Below, one piece after another: positions 8,644 through 27,446 of a DNA stretch of 33,424 nt. The stretch spans positions 1 through 33,424 of the forward strand of contig JAQXPH010000025.1 of NCBI GenBank assembly GCA_029100545.1. The letters are read 5' to 3'. The translations under genes and the position numbers were made by a program. The notes beneath the pieces are model-generated. The model was not told the origin of the DNA. It worked only from the letters and a program-made list of their open reading frames with translations, and did no database searches. The DNA is from a bacterium (lineage in GTDB: Bacteria; Bacillota_I; Bacilli_A; RF39; UBA660). Each line of letters opens with the position of its first letter. Within the stretch, counting starts at the first letter, position 1.

Positions 8644-8904
8644 ATGGCAAATATTAAAAGTTCAAAAAAAGCAATAAAAGTTATCGCAAAGAAAACTGAA
8701 AATAATCATGAAACTAAAGCTCAAGTTAAAAATTTAATTAAAGATATCGAAAAATTAATCGCTTCAGGTGATAAAGAAAAAGCTACTGAAGTATTTAAAG
8801 TTTTTCAAAAATCTTGTGATAGCGCTGTAAGCAAAGGTTTAATTAAATCTAATACTGCTGACAGACAAAAGAAAAGAATATCATCAAAAATTAAAAATAT
8901 GTAG
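8644..8904 (+). CDS. rpsT: 30S ribosomal protein S20
   Basis: 86 residues, the normal size. It begins MANIKSSKKAIKV, is rich in Lys, and ends with the S20 pattern IKSNTADRQKKRISSKIKNM. It binds 16S rRNA early in 30S assembly. GGAAGGA is placed well before the ATG. It is a single-gene unit with its own promoter and terminator, divergent from spoIIP; in Bacillus rpsT also neighbours gpr-spoIIP. Confidence 0.97.
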   Translation: MANIKSSKKAIKVIAKKTENNHETKAQVKNLIKDIEKLIASGDKEKATEVFKVFQKSCDSAVSKGLIKSNTADRQKKRISSKIKNM

Positions 8905-8925
8905 TATTTATTTACTACTTTTTTT
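8901..8925 (+). terminator. Rho-independent terminator of rpsT
   Basis: GTAGTA (8901-8906) pairs with TACTAC (8913-8918) around a 6-nt loop, followed by seven T. The TAG stop of rpsT lies inside the left arm. Confidence 0.8.
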
Positions 8926-8938
8926 ATTTTCTAATATT

Positions 8939-8947
8939 TGTTAAAAT
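8939..8947 (+). promoter_or_regulatory. Extended -10 promoter placed for a leaderless transcript
   Basis: TG-T-TAAAAT at 8939-8947 is an extended -10 element. Six bases follow, and base 8954 is the A of the next ATG. No Shine-Dalgarno sequence precedes that ATG. The predicted transcript therefore begins at the start codon. Confidence 0.55.
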
Positions 8948-8953
8948 AAAATT

Positions 8954-9937
8954 ATGAAAAAGATTTTTGTAACAATTATTTGTGTTGTATTTTTATTAAT
9001 TATTTCTTATAAAGAAAACTTTATAAGTGATTTTATATCTAAAAAAATAACTGAAAGTCCAAATCTTATTATAAAAGATAAAAATAAATATTATAAAAAT
9101 GATAATTATTTATTTGTTCAAAATACAGATAACTTTGTTCCTTATTCTTATAATGATTTATTAAATATTATCTATACTTCAATTAATAGTGGTTGGGATA
9201 CTTTTACTTTTTATTGTCCTAGTGAATATACTTCTTGCTTAAAAGATATTGAAAATATTAGTAAAGATGATATTACATTAACACATATTAATAATTATGT
9301 TCATCCATATAATAGTTTTACTAATATTAAAACAAGTATATTAGAGTCTGGCGAGATAACAATTGAAATAAATTATTTATATACTTTAGATCAAATAGAA
9401 AAAATAGATAGTGAAGTTGATAAAATAATAAGTAATCTTATTACTTCAACTCAAACTGATTATGAAAAAATAAAAGTAATTCATGATTATATTATAAATA
9501 ATACAAAATATGATGTTGAAAGAAATCAAAATAAAGATAGTAATTATTTATCATATATTGCTTATGGGCCTTTATTTGAACATATGGCAACATGTAATGG
9601 ATATACAGATTTAATGGCAATATTTTTAACTAAATTTAATATAAAAAATTATAAAATTGCTACAACAAAAGAAAGCATTAGTTCATCATCTAATGGACAT
9701 ATATGGAATGCTGTTTATTTAAATAATCAGTGGCTTCATTTAGATTTAACTTGGGATGACCCAGTAAGTGATGATGGTAAAGATTATTTATATCATAAAT
9801 ATTTTTTAATTGATACAACTACTTTAAATAAAGTTGATTCAGGTAAAGTTGAAATTGAAGAACATAATTTTGATAAAAATTATTATTTAGAATTTAATGA
9901 ATCTATAAATGAACTTATTTCTTCTTCTGTTTCCTGA
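8954..9937 (+). CDS. Membrane-anchored transglutaminase-like protein
   Basis: 327 residues. An uncleaved signal or anchor helix (about 4-18) comes first. The catalytic triad of a transglutaminase-like (papain fold) domain is visible: Cys214 in ATCNGYTDLM, His249 in NGHIWNAV and Asp264 in LHLDLTWDDP. The preceding helix reads IKVIHDYIINNTKYD, also typical. It acts outside the membrane, probably as a peptidase or amidase on surface proteins or wall peptides; the substrate is unknown. There is no lipobox. The start has no ribosome site; a promoter six bases upstream suggests a leaderless mRNA. Its 3' end overlaps the convergent miaA by 55 nt. Confidence 0.85.
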   Translation: MKKIFVTIICVVFLLIISYKENFISDFISKKITESPNLIIKDKNKYYKNDNYLFVQNTDNFVPYSYNDLLNIIYTSINSGWDTFTFYCPSEYTSCLKDIENISKDDITLTHINNYVHPYNSFTNIKTSILESGEITIEINYLYTLDQIEKIDSEVDKIISNLITSTQTDYEKIKVIHDYIINNTKYDVERNQNKDSNYLSYIAYGPLFEHMATCNGYTDLMAIFLTKFNIKNYKIATTKESISSSSNGHIWNAVYLNNQWLHLDLTWDDPVSDDGKDYLYHKYFLIDTTTLNKVDSGKVEIEEHNFDKNYYLEFNESINELISSSVS

Positions 9938-10737
9938 AAATTATCAAAATTTACATTAAACCAATTAACATTAAGTTGATTATTAAACCAGGTATATTGT
10001 CTTTTGACATAATGTCTGGTATTTTTTTTAATATTTTCAATTGCCTTTTCATAAGAAACAAAATTATTAAAATAATCAATTAATTCTTTATAACCAATAG
10101 CTCTTTTTAAGATATTACTATTTGGATATTTTAAATATAAATCTTTAACTTCTTTTTCAAGACCATTATTTAGCATTTTATCAACCCTATTATTAACAGT
10201 TTCATATATTTTTTCTCTAGGAGCAGTAAGTCCTATATATATAACATCATATAAACTTTTATCTTTATTATTTTTATTATCATCTCTTTTTAAATAATTT
10301 ATAAGTCTTACTCTATTATTTTGATGAATATTATTACATCCTTTTTGTTTAGCCATTAAATAAAGCTGTTCATTAGAATATTTTTCAAAGTTTTCCTCAT
10401 TTAATTTATTAAACTTATAATCATAAAATAATGCTTTAATATAAAGACCAGTTCCTCCAACAACGATAATATTTTGGTTTTCATATTCCTTTAAAAGTTT
10501 TCTGGCATCAATTTGATATTCCATAACGCTATAATCTTCATCAGGATTTTTTATATCAAAAAGAAAGTGTTTTCTTTCTCCCATTTCTTCATTTGTTATT
10601 TTAGCACTACCAATATCTAAATATTTATAAATTTGAGTTGCATCAGCATTTAACACTATACCATTATATTTTTCAGCTAAAAACTCACTTAATCTAGTTT
10701 TTCCAATACCTGTTGGACCACACACACATATTATCAT
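9883..10737 (-). CDS. miaA: tRNA dimethylallyltransferase
   Basis: 284 residues, slightly short for the family (about 300). P-loop GPTGIGKT (7-14), the NADATQIY region that corresponds to the usual DSxQVY, and the motif GERKHFLFD are present. The C-terminal helices include RRAIGYKE-like KRAIGYKEL and RQYTWF. It adds a dimethylallyl group to A37 of tRNAs that read codons starting with U. GAGGAAAA precedes the ATG. The gene stands alone, divergent from tmcAL and convergent with the transglutaminase gene, with which it shares 55 nt at the 3' ends. Confidence 0.95.
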   Translation of the reverse strand: MIICVCGPTGIGKTRLSEFLAEKYNGIVLNADATQIYKYLDIGSAKITNEEMGERKHFLFDIKNPDEDYSVMEYQIDARKLLKEYENQNIIVVGGTGLYIKALFYDYKFNKLNEENFEKYSNEQLYLMAKQKGCNNIHQNNRVRLINYLKRDDNKNNKDKSLYDVIYIGLTAPREKIYETVNNRVDKMLNNGLEKEVKDLYLKYPNSNILKRAIGYKELIDYFNNFVSYEKAIENIKKNTRHYVKRQYTWFNNQLNVNWFNVNFDNFQETEEEISSFIDSLNSK

Positions 10738-10767
10738 AATTTTTCCTCTTTTTTATTATAATATAAT

Positions 10768-10796
10768 TTGACAAATAAAGAAATATTTTATATATT
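10768..10796 (+). promoter_or_regulatory. Consensus promoter giving a leaderless tmcAL transcript
   Basis: TTGACA (10768-10773), 17 nt, TATATT (10791-10796), then six bases and the ATG at 10803. No ribosome binding site is present. The expected transcription start coincides with the A of the start codon. Confidence 0.75.
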
Positions 10797-10802
10797 AAAT
10801 GC

Positions 10803-11906
10803 ATGGAAATAATAGGTATAATCGCAGAATATAACCCACTTCATAATGGGCATATTTATCATATTAATAAAATAAAAGAAAAATACCCTGATAGTTTAAT
10901 TATTCTTGCTTTAAATGGTTATTTTATGGAGCGTGGTGAAGTATCAATATTATCTAAATATGATAAAGCATATTTATCTGTTTTATGTGGTGTTGATATA
11001 GTTATAAGTATACCAACTTTATTTGGAGTTCAAAGTGCAGATACTTTTGCACAAACTGCAGTTAAATTATTAAACTATTTAAATGTAAATAAAATTATAT
11101 TTGGAAGTGAATCAAATAATATAGAATTACTTACAAAAATTGCTAAAAAATCACTTGAAAATGATAAAAATGAAATGATTTCTTATTATATAAAAAAAGG
11201 ATTAAATTACCCTACTGCATTAAGTAAAGTTATTAATGAAAAATTTGATTATAATCCTAATGATTTACTTGGTATATGTTATATAAAATCTATTTTACAA
11301 AATAATTATAAAATTATTCCTGAAACTATTTTAAGAACTAATAATTATTTAGATATTAAAAGTAATGATAATATAATAAGTGCTTTAAATATACGAAATA
11401 AAATTAAAGAAAATGAAAATATAAGTAAATATGTTCCAGAAAATGTAATAAATAAAATTAATTTAATTAATAATGATTTATTATTTAATTTAATTAAAAT
11501 TCAAATACTTAATAATGATATTAGTAATATTTTAGATGTTGATGAAGATATGGTATTTTTATTACAAAAAAATATTTCGAAAGTTAATAATTTAAATGAT
11601 TTAATAAACAAATTAAAATCAAAAAAATGTACTTATAATAAAATTAATAGAATGCTTATTCATATTTTGTTAAATATTAAAAAAAATGATGTTAAAACTC
11701 AACTTGATTATATTAATATAATAGGATTTAATAAAAAAGGTAAAAATTATTTAAATAGTATTAAAAAAAATATTAATATTTCTACTAAAATAAATAAAGA
11801 ATCCATTATTTATAAATATGAATTAAAAAGTGCTATTATCTATGATATGTTAACAAATAAAAATGAATTAAAAAAAGAGTTAGAAAATAAACCAATTATT
11901 CTTTAA
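10803..11906 (+). CDS. tmcAL: tRNA(Met) cytidine acetate ligase (TmcAL, YlbM family)
   Basis: 367 residues. The N-terminal nucleotidyltransferase-like domain has GIIAEYNPLHNGHIYHI (HxGH-type motif), followed by NGYFMERGE and GVDIVISIPTLFGVQSADTFA, all characteristic of YlbM. In B. subtilis this enzyme uses acetate and ATP to make N4-acetylcytidine at the wobble base of elongator tRNA-Met. The C-terminal half is very Asn/Lys/Ile rich, in line with the base composition. The start is fixed by a promoter rather than by a ribosome site. Its last 11 nt overlap the convergent membrane protein gene. Confidence 0.92.
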   Translation: MEIIGIIAEYNPLHNGHIYHINKIKEKYPDSLIILALNGYFMERGEVSILSKYDKAYLSVLCGVDIVISIPTLFGVQSADTFAQTAVKLLNYLNVNKIIFGSESNNIELLTKIAKKSLENDKNEMISYYIKKGLNYPTALSKVINEKFDYNPNDLLGICYIKSILQNNYKIIPETILRTNNYLDIKSNDNIISALNIRNKIKENENISKYVPENVINKINLINNDLLFNLIKIQILNNDISNILDVDEDMVFLLQKNISKVNNLNDLINKLKSKKCTYNKINRMLIHILLNIKKNDVKTQLDYINIIGFNKKGKNYLNSIKKNINISTKINKESIIYKYELKSAIIYDMLTNKNELKKELENKPIIL

Positions 11907-13698
11907 CTCTTTTTATATTTAATAAATATATTGTAACTAAAGGCATTGAAAATATATAAGGCATAGCATAACGATAATAATTATTCGCAGGACCTAAAAC
12001 ACAAAACAATAAAGAAAAATATAAAGGTAATAAAATTACTAAATAGTCATATTTTTTATTTTTTATTAAATACACAAGTAATACTATAAGTAACCATGTA
12101 TTAAATCCCGGACTTACAATTAATCCTAATACTGGTATAGCTCTAAATGCATAAGCATAACTACTTAAAAAATTTCTTAAACCCTCTAAATTATTATAAT
12201 GATAATCAACTAAATTATTATCTGTTATAGGATCATAATATTTAAAATATATATACCAATGAATATCACTTGGATCAAAGAAACCATAAATATTATTAAG
12301 TGTTGCATCAATATAAGTAAAAGGATAAGATATTAGTCCATTAAACCAAGTTTTGAAATAATTTGTTAAATCTTTTTTAGTAGCATATTTATTAAAAGTA
12401 TTTTTAACTGGATCTGATAAAACTGGATTATAATTTTTCTTTATTGCTTCATAATCTAATACTTTACTTATATTTTTTTTATCATTTTCACTAAGACTAT
12501 CTTCATGATATTGAATAAGTCTTGCTGTTTGTTGAAAAGGAATACTTAATGCCTCTCTTATGCTTGTACCAGTTATTCCTAGTTTAGGAAGAAGTATTTT
12601 TGAATATGATAAATATAAACTAGTTATAATAAATGTAATCACTATTATTTTTTTGATATTTTTTCTACTAAATAGACATAAAAAAGGTACAAGTAATATA
12701 ATTAAAAATACTCCATTATTTCTAAATAAACAAATAAATATTGAAAGTATAAAAAATAAAATAATACTTTTCAAAGACCAATTAGTACTTTTATATTTTT
12801 CAATAAAATTAATTATAAACATTATAAGAAGTATTACTAAAGTTGTATAATAAACATCTTTATTAGTATTAATTGCATAAAACGGAAAGCTAGGTACTAA
12901 TGCATATATAAATATTAAAGGAATTAAAAATTTATTTTGAACTTTTCTTTTCTTTAAAAAATTAATTGTATAAGCAAGAGTAATTGCTAAAAACAATCCT
13001 TGAATAAATGTATAAATAAATAAGCCAAAATTATCATTTAAGATAAGTCTTCCTAATTTTATACAAGAACCTAAAAGCATGGTATGAAATACAGGATGAT
13101 GATTAGTAATATTTACATTTGGATTAATTTGAACTGAATAATTTACATATTTAGTTTTTACATTAAAAAATTGTTTAATTTGATTACTAGGATCTGGGGA
13201 TAATACGGCAGGATAAAATGCAATATAATATATACTCCAACAAAGAATAATTATAATTAAAGATATTAAAAATGGGTGTTTATTAAAAAGTTTTATAAAC
13301 TTATTTTCTTTAAAATCTTTTTTATTTAAATAATATTTAATTACTTTTTTTGTATATAAAATAATATATAATAAAATTAAACTTAATGATAAAAATCTAT
13401 ATATTGTAAATATAAACATAAAATTTTTAAATAAAATACTTAAACTAGATATACTACGATAACTTTGTCCAACAAGTAAAAATATTGAAAATAATCCCGT
13501 TAGTATTATATCTTCTTTAGTTATTTTTTCTTTATTATTCTTTATGAATAAATATAATATTATAGAAAAAATCAAAGCAATAATTATACCATTTAAATTA
13601 ATAAAATTACCTTTATTTAAATAAATATTTTTATAATTTATAAAAAGTGAAAATGATGATAATACCGCAATTAATATATTTAATAATTTCTTTTTCAT
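11896..13698 (-). CDS. Multi-pass membrane protein, DUF6020-like (GT-C fold family candidate)
   Basis: About 600 residues with roughly a dozen hydrophobic helices. A large loop near residue 170 has YPAVLSPDPSNQIKQF, followed by NHHPVFHTMLLG and AINTNKDVYY. This fits the DUF6020/lipid-linked sugar transferase type of membrane protein, where an acidic residue after the first helix binds the lipid phosphate. The donor and acceptor are unknown. Two ATGs are possible (13704 and 13698). The second is preferred because TATACT ends six bases upstream of the first and would place the mRNA start at 13698; no Shine-Dalgarno is present. It stands alone and faces tmcAL tail to tail. Confidence 0.72.
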   Translation of the reverse strand: MKKKLLNILIAVLSSFSLFINYKNIYLNKGNFINLNGIIIALIFSIILYLFIKNNKEKITKEDIILTGLFSIFLLVGQSYRSISSLSILFKNFMFIFTIYRFLSLSLILLYIILYTKKVIKYYLNKKDFKENKFIKLFNKHPFLISLIIIILCWSIYYIAFYPAVLSPDPSNQIKQFFNVKTKYVNYSVQINPNVNITNHHPVFHTMLLGSCIKLGRLILNDNFGLFIYTFIQGLFLAITLAYTINFLKKRKVQNKFLIPLIFIYALVPSFPFYAINTNKDVYYTTLVILLIMFIINFIEKYKSTNWSLKSIILFFILSIFICLFRNNGVFLIILLVPFLCLFSRKNIKKIIVITFIITSLYLSYSKILLPKLGITGTSIREALSIPFQQTARLIQYHEDSLSENDKKNISKVLDYEAIKKNYNPVLSDPVKNTFNKYATKKDLTNYFKTWFNGLISYPFTYIDATLNNIYGFFDPSDIHWYIYFKYYDPITDNNLVDYHYNNLEGLRNFLSSYAYAFRAIPVLGLIVSPGFNTWLLIVLLVYLIKNKKYDYLVILLPLYFSLLFCVLGPANNYYRYAMPYIFSMPLVTIYLLNIKRVKE

Positions 13699-13704
13699 AA
13701 ACAT

Positions 13705-13733
13705 AGTATAACAAATATATATATATAAGTAAA
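13705..13733 (-). promoter_or_regulatory. Promoter of the DUF6020-like gene, placed for leaderless mRNA
   Basis: TTTACT (13733-13728), 17 nt, TATACT (13710-13705) with a TG one base before it. The next six bases are ATGTTT, then ATGAAAAAG. The expected start falls on the second ATG. Confidence 0.65.
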
Positions 13734-13813
13734 TTATTAGAATTTAATAAATTATCAATAAGCTAGTTTTTATTAAAAAACTATCAACACCATCTTGTAC
13801 AAAAGGATGTAGA

Positions 13814-13897
13814 ATGATGAGAACTAAAACTTTTATCGTAAAATTACTTAGATACATCTTTATAATTTTACTACTATATACCTTATTGGTACTATAG
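13814..13897 (+). CDS. 27-residue hydrophobic peptide, possible type I toxin
   Basis: Too short for the ORF track. It begins MMRTKTFIVKLLR and continues with one hydrophobic helix rich in Leu/Ile, ending at TAG. AAAAGGATG lies seven bases before the first ATG. A hairpin-rich 3' region follows, with a U-run terminator at about 13949-13983. A second transcript on the opposite strand ends under the same region. Basic start plus membrane helix, tiny size and a facing antisense RNA are features of Fst/TxpA-like toxins. No sequence likeness to a known toxin is claimed. It may also be chance coding. Confidence 0.45.
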   Translation: MMRTKTFIVKLLRYIFIILLLYTLLVL

Positions 13898-13898
13898 T

Positions 13899-14108
13899 TA
13901 AAAAATAGACACTCTGCTTTTGTAGAGTGTCTCACACTTTGTGAGGTGACATTCACTTACGCAATTGAATGTTCCTCTTTTTTATTTTATGCTATTTTTC
14001 TTGCCAAAAACATAATAACATTTAAAAAAACTTTTTACAAGTTATCTTTTTATTTAAATCAAACTTTTATTCACAAATTTGAAATTTTATAGTTTTATAT
14101 CAATCTCT
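13899..14108 (-). ncRNA. Antisense RNA candidate, about 210 nt, facing the peptide gene
   Basis: A minus-strand promoter TTGCTA (14143-14138), 17 nt, TAAAAT (14120-14115) predicts a start near 14108. No coding frame of interest follows. The RNA then forms three hairpins (arms ACATTCA/TGAATGT, CTCACA/TGTGAG, GACACTCT/AGAGTGTC). The last is followed by TATTTTTT, a clear terminator near 13900. About 85 nt overlap the 3' part of the peptide mRNA on the other strand. The track's 70-aa ORF here (13744-13956) runs straight through the terminator and is probably false. Confidence 0.5.
13949..13983 (+). terminator. Terminator of the small peptide transcript
   Basis: ACATTCA (13949-13955) pairs with TGAATGT (13966-13972), followed by TCCTCTTTTTT. 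Two further hairpins (13908-13931 and 13931-13945) precede it, so the plus-strand 3' UTR is highly structured. Confidence 0.6.
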
Positions 14109-14188: not shown

Positions 14189-14902
14189 TTAATGTTTTAT
14201 ATAAAATCCTTTTTCAAAATCTATATTAAAATAATGAGACTTATTTTTAACTTTGCATATTTCTTTATTATTTTTATATACCGAAATACTATTATCTTCC
14301 CAAGAATCATTAAATATTATTTCATAATCAGTAACATTTAAATCATTTATCTCTACTGCATTTACAGGTAAAAATTTTTTCAAATCATAACCACCAATGT
14401 CAATTCCTAAATCAAACTGTTTACAGAAATCTTTTCCTATAGCATACGCAAAAGTCTTACTATCTCCAAATCCTCCGTTTCCATCCGATTTATAAACCAA
14501 TACTAAATCACTATTGTTAATCAAAAGTTTATTTTCGACAACAAATGTTAAAAAAAGAATTATAGGAAATAACAAAAAAATTATTGTTGCAAATATAACT
14601 TTATTATTTTTAGTATATATCAGTTTTTTTCTTTTAATTAAGTTTAATATAGTTGATGATACATACAATATTCCTGCAACAAACTCAATTAAATATATAA
14701 ATAACACTTCTAACCCAACTGGTATATATAAAACACCTATCATGATTAAATTTATAATTAAATATAATATATAAATTATATCAATCAAAATGATCCAATT
14801 ACAAATATACTTATTTTTATTTTTTATAGAATACACTAACGTTATTATTGAAAATAAACCAATCAAAATTGATATACAATAAATACAATTTTTTATTAAC
14901 AC
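14189..14902 (-). CDS. Unknown membrane protein with C-terminal soluble domain
   Basis: About 237 residues. Four hydrophobic helices (N-terminal 120 residues plus one near 110-130) are followed by a polar domain of about 100 residues beginning SDLVLVYKSDGNGGFG. I do not recognise the family. The start is uncertain: GGAG lies eight bases before GTG at 14902, while the longer ATG at 14920 follows TATAAT (14931-14926) by five bases and could be leaderless. The frame is intact although it sits among wrecked genes in the island. AT content is even higher than in the neighbouring genes. Confidence 0.6.
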   Translation of the reverse strand: MLIKNCIYCISILIGLFSIITLVYSIKNKNKYICNWIILIDIIYILYLIINLIMIGVLYIPVGLEVLFIYLIEFVAGILYVSSTILNLIKRKKLIYTKNNKVIFATIIFLLFPIILFLTFVVENKLLINNSDLVLVYKSDGNGGFGDSKTFAYAIGKDFCKQFDLGIDIGGYDLKKFLPVNAVEINDLNVTDYEIIFNDSWEDNSISVYKNNKEICKVKNKSHYFNIDFEKGFYIKH

Positions 14903-14952
14903 TATTACTACTCCTATCATATAAAATTATATCACAAAATTCTTTATTTTTA

Positions 14953-27187: not shown

Positions 27188-27432
27188 TTTTTACCTATAT
27201 TTTTTATATTACCTTCTATAAGAAGTTCAATATTATTCATTTGCGTAATTTTTAAGTTATTTCCAATTATATCTATTGTAAAATTTTCTATTTTTAGAGT
27301 AATTTTATTTTCAGAAAGATTTATTATTCTTTCATAGTTATAAATATATATACTATCTTTGAAAAAAGAAATAAAATAATTATTATCATATAAAAAGTTT
27401 ATGATAGCATTCTTTATATTCAAAAATATCAC
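27184..27432 (-). CDS. yqfC: Sporulation protein YqfC (YabP/YqfC family)
   Basis: About 82 residues. The core ISFFKDSIYIYNYERIINLS, then ITLKIENFTIDIIGNNLKI and IELLIEGNI has the YabP/YqfC beta-strand pattern. The pairing with yqfD by a four-base overlap supports the call. The start is uncertain: the track uses TTG at 27435, GTG at 27432 lies exactly six bases after a TATAAT (27444-27439) and could be leaderless, and TTG at 27423 has GGTG upstream. It heads the yqfC-to-tdk run. Confidence 0.82.
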   Translation of the reverse strand: MIFLNIKNAIINFLYDNNYFISFFKDSIYIYNYERIINLSENKITLKIENFTIDIIGNNLKITQMNNIELLIEGNIKNIGKK

Positions 27433-27446
27433 CAATTAATTATATG

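Follow-up and report, generated by a model that had tools for sequence, protein, structure and literature searches.

Three neighbouring genes, for a transglutaminase-core protein, TmcAL and a DUF6020 membrane protein, start without a Shine-Dalgarno (SD) sequence and with a −10 box only a few bases before the start codon, which raises the question of whether their mRNAs have any leader at all. The genes lie in contig JAQXPH010000025.1 of assembly GCA_029100545.1 (33,424 bases, the whole stretch analysed and hereafter the window), which belongs to a 1.13-Mb draft genome in 57 contigs from the RF39/UBA660 lineage (Bacilli_A, Bacillota_I in GTDB). The G+C content is about 24% across the window and about 19.5% around the three-gene site (about 80% A+T). 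Leaderless mRNAs are bound directly at their 5′-terminal AUG by 70S ribosomes, or by 30S subunits with initiator tRNA, without SD pairing. Leaderless starts are usually surveyed one species at a time; where sister species differ in whether the same gene has a leader behind the same −10 box, the stepwise gain and loss of this mode can be traced.

Calibration of the transcription start

Profiles of the −10 box alone, our first attempt, were too noisy, and a promoter matrix was used instead. The matrix was built from 504 SD-led genes, each with one clear −10 box at a distance of 13-28 nt upstream of its start, which came from stretches of four genus members and one other genus and from loci of 55 relatives; these genes were aligned on the −10 box, and the SD-less genes that were scored lie outside this training set. 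The aligned set (n = 504) contained a −35 TTG at 17-nt spacing, an extended −10 TG and TATAAT, and its G/purine enrichment, corresponding to the SD, started exactly 6 nt past the −10 box. An SD works only if it is transcribed, so that enrichment from this position onwards is consistent with a transcript beginning there. With the start calibrated in this way, a −10 box located 6 nt before an ATG puts the A of that ATG at +1.

In the whole sample, the commonest distance between the −10 box and the start of SD-led genes was about 15-17 nt, which means that the ordinary leaders of this lineage are only about 9-11 nt long. These Bacilli seem, as a rule, to use very short leaders, and leaderless starts may represent the extreme of such a compact design. 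Throughout the sample, very little of the mRNA precedes the SD of an SD-led gene.

Start regions of the three genes

The preliminary description of the window had reported that all three genes lack an SD and have the −10 box exactly six bases before the start codon; all of these elements were found where they had been placed, in the DUF6020 gene by way of its second in-frame ATG. The transglutaminase gene (8954..9937, plus strand; Pfam PF01841, E = 1.2 × 10−9) has no SD and is predicted to be leaderless, with its ATG at +1. Its start region (8939-8956, plus strand) reads TGTTAAAAT-AAAATT-ATG, with the ATG at 8954, and the extended −10 box TGTTAAAAT (8939..8947, plus strand; hexamer 8942-8947) has a matrix score of 8.8, the best among spacings 0-39. 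A hairpin resembling an intrinsic terminator of rpsT (8901..8925, plus strand; GTAGTA-6-TACTAC and then a T run) ends about 29 nt before this ATG, the end of its stem being placed 33 nt upstream of the ATG by an automatic hairpin scan, and a comparable hairpin is present behind rpsT in most sister species.

The tmcAL gene (10803..11906, plus strand; HIGH nucleotidyl transferase family, Pfam PF05636, E = 2.2 × 10−96) also has no SD and is predicted to be leaderless. Its start region (10768-10805, plus strand) reads TTGACA-17-TATATT-AAATGC-ATG: the −35 box TTGACA (10768..10773, plus strand), which is kept in all six leaderless members of the genus, is followed after a 17-nt spacer by the −10 box TATATT (10791..10796, plus strand), 6 nt before the ATG at 10803. 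Divergent promoters of miaA and tmcAL are packed within 65 nt (10738-10802), with the −35 box of tmcAL adjoining the −10 box of miaA; miaA itself is leadered, its own −10 box standing 17 nt from its ATG.

The DUF6020 gene (11896..13698, minus strand; Pfam PF19484, E = 4.3 × 10−65) has no SD either, and its start region (13733-13696, minus strand) reads TTTACT-17-TATACT-ATGTTT-ATG, in which the −35-like TTTACT (13728..13733) and the −10 box TATACT (13705..13710) are separated by a 17-nt spacer and TGT precedes the latter, giving an extended −10. The 6 nt are counted to the second in-frame ATG (13698), at which distance the box has a matrix score of 10.4. The first in-frame ATG (13704) touches the −10 box, so that the predicted transcript starts at the second ATG, from which the gene would be leaderless. 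In these uncultured Bacilli, annotation that relies on an SD search will put such starts in the wrong place, as the first ATG of the DUF6020 gene, lying off the predicted transcript, illustrates. Nearby, at 13804-13980 on the plus strand, is a very short hydrophobic open reading frame (MMRTKTFIVKLLRYIFIILLLYTLLVL) with an SD-like AAAGGATG and with inverted repeats after it, an arrangement resembling that of a type I toxin-antitoxin peptide and an antisense or terminator region.

Enrichment of promoters 6 nt before the start codon

The genus pool comprised 1741 genes from five genomes (the window's genome, G003, G004, G007 and G008), of which 415 were SD-less. For the enrichment and ortholog counts, start codons were picked by simple rules without a gene finder, and the SD criterion was a match of at least 5 nt; for the three main genes, every start in the first 30 codons was checked. 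In the SD-less genes of the genus, matrix matches at 5, 6 and 7 nt numbered 3, 18 and 4, respectively, with an average of about 2.6 at the other spacings from 0 to 14 nt and a far background of 4.25. This one-base peak at 6 nt was significant in the genus (P about 6 × 10−7) and also when the window's genome was left out (P = 3 × 10−4), and it stayed under a looser filter that excluded only an SD of the start itself (18 vs. a near background of 4.3, still significant). Internal in-frame ATGs showed no special peak at 6 nt, only the periodicity of the reading frame. A bump at 4 nt before GTG and TTG starts consisted, on inspection, mostly of codons within the leaders of other starts, and counts of TGNTAWAATN(6/4/8)ATGAAA in 117 family genomes were dropped because coding-frame effects make the spacings non-comparable. 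Terminators stood ahead of 7 of 25 leaderless genes vs. 115 of 742 in the comparison, a difference that is not significant (P = 0.10).

The genes at exactly 6 nt were distributed unevenly: 7 in the window's genome, which shows the excess by itself, 5 in G004, and 3 each in G007 and G008, where the excess is marginal when each genome is taken singly. Of the 7 cases in the 563 kb sampled from the window's genome, 3 are the three neighbours. There was no excess in the held-out test genome G003, where none of the 64 SD-less genes had a match at 6 nt, or in the pooled other genera (0 of 129 under the strict filter; 3 of 206 vs. 1.8 expected under the loose one); given the loose-filter count, we do not conclude that other genera lack leaderless starts. 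The count of −10 boxes 5-7 nt before starts in relatives, which had been suggested as a check, thus yields a peak in the genus that extends neither to G003 nor to the pooled other genera, and what had been described as a regular second mode for first genes is retained as a small minority mode, with about 1% of genes at exactly 6 nt and uneven use between species.

Conservation of the spacing between orthologs

Reciprocal best pairs within the genus numbered 964, including 203 pairs that were SD-less on both sides and 411 with an SD on both. A promoter at the same spacing on both sides was found in 13 of the 203 SD-less pairs at 5 nt, in 6 at 6 nt, and in 0-3 at any other spacing; among the 411 SD-SD pairs, spacings below 15 nt were shared by one pair at 0 nt and one at 9 nt, and otherwise by none. 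The pairs with shared spacing stem from few families, namely tmcAL and a pilin-like gene at 6 nt and, at 5 nt, a ytaF-like gene, a CotS-like kinase and one more, plus GTG pairs, some of which look like short SD leaders (the labels pilin-like, ytaF-like and CotS-like come from reading the sequences alone). The ytaF-like gene, the source of 6 of the 13 pairs shared at 5 nt, has no SD and a −10-like box at 5 nt in each of the nine genus genomes where it is present, with weaker boxes in G004 and G005, and in the other genera examined it mostly has an SD. In G008 it lies 13 nt behind a same-strand gene, so that coupling is possible there.

At three loci of the CotS-like kinase (L077, L166 and L229) the −10 box is 5 nt before the ATG, and at L077 and L229 it directly abuts the T run of the upstream gene's terminator hairpin, with no room for a leader. 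The 6-nt leaderless arrangement of the pilin-like gene is kept in G004, G007 and G008 (loci L186, L142 and L159), where a conserved GTCGCTTTTTAAATTGAAAA, resembling a terminator end, precedes it by about 25 nt.

Loss and gain of leaders within the genus

Across relatives, the start of tmcAL is nearly fixed relative to a conserved EYNP motif, and in the window, as in most relatives, the ATG is 7 codons ahead of it. The arrangement TTGACA-17/18-TATATT-6-ATG without an SD is present in six genus members (the window, G001, G006, G007, G008 and G009), among which TmcAL protein identity is 51-60%. In G002 and G004, TATATT is separated from a TTG start by ten more bases, GGTGA among them, with a similar arrangement in G003, and an SD is found at tmcAL in nearly all of the 55 relatives from other genera. 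The tmcAL tree places the window's species as basal in the genus and G002-G004 as nested, for which the simplest account is a leaderless tmcAL ancestral to the genus and a leader regained later; tmcAL was, then, probably leaderless in the genus ancestor and became leadered again in G002-G004. Every leaderless tmcAL begins with ATG and the leadered sister genes with TTG, in line with a preference of leaderless initiation for AUG that has been reported (PMC9031893).

The leaderless arrangement of the transglutaminase gene is limited to the window's species; in the sisters, the rpsT terminator is followed by a matching box, TGnTAAAAT or one like it, and then by an SD leader, and the gene appears to be newly leaderless in the window's species. 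For the DUF6020 gene, conservation of the start position is weaker than for tmcAL: among the sisters, the gene is again leaderless in G003, with TATAAT-6-GTG, has TATAAT-9-ATG in G002 and G004, and is leadered in G006-G008. The three neighbours have different histories, and no common cause of their clustering is apparent.

Matching −10 boxes with and without a leader in sister species indicate that leaders have been lost and regained. We lean towards the view that, in this one genus, individual genes moved in both directions between an SD leader and none, the −10 box being retained while the 10-20 nt separating it from the start codon were lost or gained, and the leaderless state then being held to one base. 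A short SD leader between the −10 box and the start codon would have been removed by deletion in a compact, AT-rich lineage, leaving a leaderless gene, and an SD leader would have been regained later by insertion. If such switching took place, the evolution of leaderless initiation becomes directly traceable, gene by gene.

Alternative explanations for the three genes

That the three genes have leaderless promoters, as the preliminary description had proposed, is the best reading of the exact spacing, the −10 boxes that fit the matrix, the missing SD, the rpsT terminator upstream of the transglutaminase gene and, as the strongest evidence, the comparison across species, in which the arrangement is either conserved or replaced by a leader. 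We consider it likely that these genes have sigma-A-type promoters from which transcription would begin at the first base of the start codon, so that the mRNAs would be leaderless and carry a 5′-terminal AUG, and that leaders were lost and regained in the genus. Translation would then rely on 70S ribosomes, or 30S subunits with initiator tRNA, binding directly to this AUG. The genes might instead be leadered but independent of an SD, with upstream promoters and AU-rich, unstructured leaders, or be translated by coupling from an upstream gene, as could be expected from the fact that about a quarter of the genes in the genus sample have no SD of at least 5 nt and from the position of the ytaF-like gene in G008 just behind its neighbour. 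This explanation, however, gives no reason for a −10 box to stand at one exact spacing, and it conflicts with the rpsT terminator about 30 nt upstream of the transglutaminase start and with the divergent orientation of tmcAL and miaA, 65 nt apart, which leaves no upstream cistron that could couple; we regard it as unlikely.

It is very unlikely that the starts were misassigned, with the true starts lying downstream behind an ordinary SD and the −10 boxes serving short leaders. This explanation is likely for yqfC (GGTGA and TTG) and possible for the gene of a 14-kb membrane protein (AGGAG and GTG), two genes considered below, but no SD of at least 5 nt precedes any start in the first 30 codons of the three main genes, the ATG of tmcAL keeps its usual distance from EYNP, and the transglutaminase and DUF6020 proteins open with MKK and a hydrophobic stretch, like most of their orthologs. 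Chance is scarcely credible as the source of the boxes, even though TATAAT-like hexamers are frequent in DNA of about 80% A+T and hexamers resembling a −10 box form a high background at 20-29% G+C, since chance would produce neither a peak confined to one base, with or without the window's genome, nor an exact spacing that is kept between orthologs.

Comparison with known leaderless systems

Leaderless genes of this kind are already known; what is new is the lineage and the proposed switching within a genus with retained −10 boxes. In TA-led genes, the first T of the −10 box is about 12 nt before the start codon, with a TG extension in low-GC Firmicutes and no SD (Zheng et al. 2011, PMC3160421), and the genes described here share all three traits, a first T at about −12 being equivalent to the 6-nt gap. 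The same survey places the leaderless genes of Firmicutes in Lactobacillales (Lactococcus and Streptococcus) and Mycoplasma, whereas the present genus of Bacilli is separate from these lineages and has about 1% of such genes vs. an average of 18.3% in five Mycoplasma genomes. In Streptococcus pneumoniae D39, also of the class Bacilli, 9% of operons are leaderless and pbp2A is efficiently translated (PMC6212727); the starts were mapped experimentally there and are predicted here. Mesoplasma florum has nine genes transcribed only from start sites at the start codon, as mapped by 5′-RACE (PMC7745072), and although it belongs to another lineage, and mapping sets it apart from our predictions, it is like the present case in having a small genome and promoters that combine a weak −35 with a conserved Pribnow box and its extended element. 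The geometry of the present genes is identical to that in Deinococcus-Thermus, where an ORF-adjacent −10 motif acts as a promoter according to its spacing requirement and expression tests (PMC12340547), but that phylum is unrelated and about one third of its genes are of this kind. A text search of the literature for leaderless genes together with RF39 found no paper.

Two further candidate genes

The genes yqfC and that of the 14-kb membrane protein had been put forward as possible further cases, and neither is accepted here as clearly leaderless, since each has a downstream SD and an alternative start. In the start region of yqfC (27421..27444, minus strand), TATAAT is followed by 15 nt containing GGTGA and by a TTG at 27423, and the reading TATAAT-6-GTG overlaps this GGTGA, a good SD for the TTG. 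GGTGA with a TTG 15 nt from the −10 box is the commonest leadered arrangement, for which reason the leadered reading is preferred and yqfC is probably leadered rather than leaderless. The start region of the 14-kb gene (14900..14931, minus strand) is ambiguous: TATAAT-5-ATG (ATG at 14920; extended −10, score 9.1) is followed downstream by AGGAG-8-GTG, with the rival GTG start at codon 7 (14902), and the start is possibly a leadered one. At the end of the contig (32035-33294, minus strand), a further gene appears, from a reading of its sequence, to encode a protein like the Mob/Pre plasmid mobilisation relaxases.
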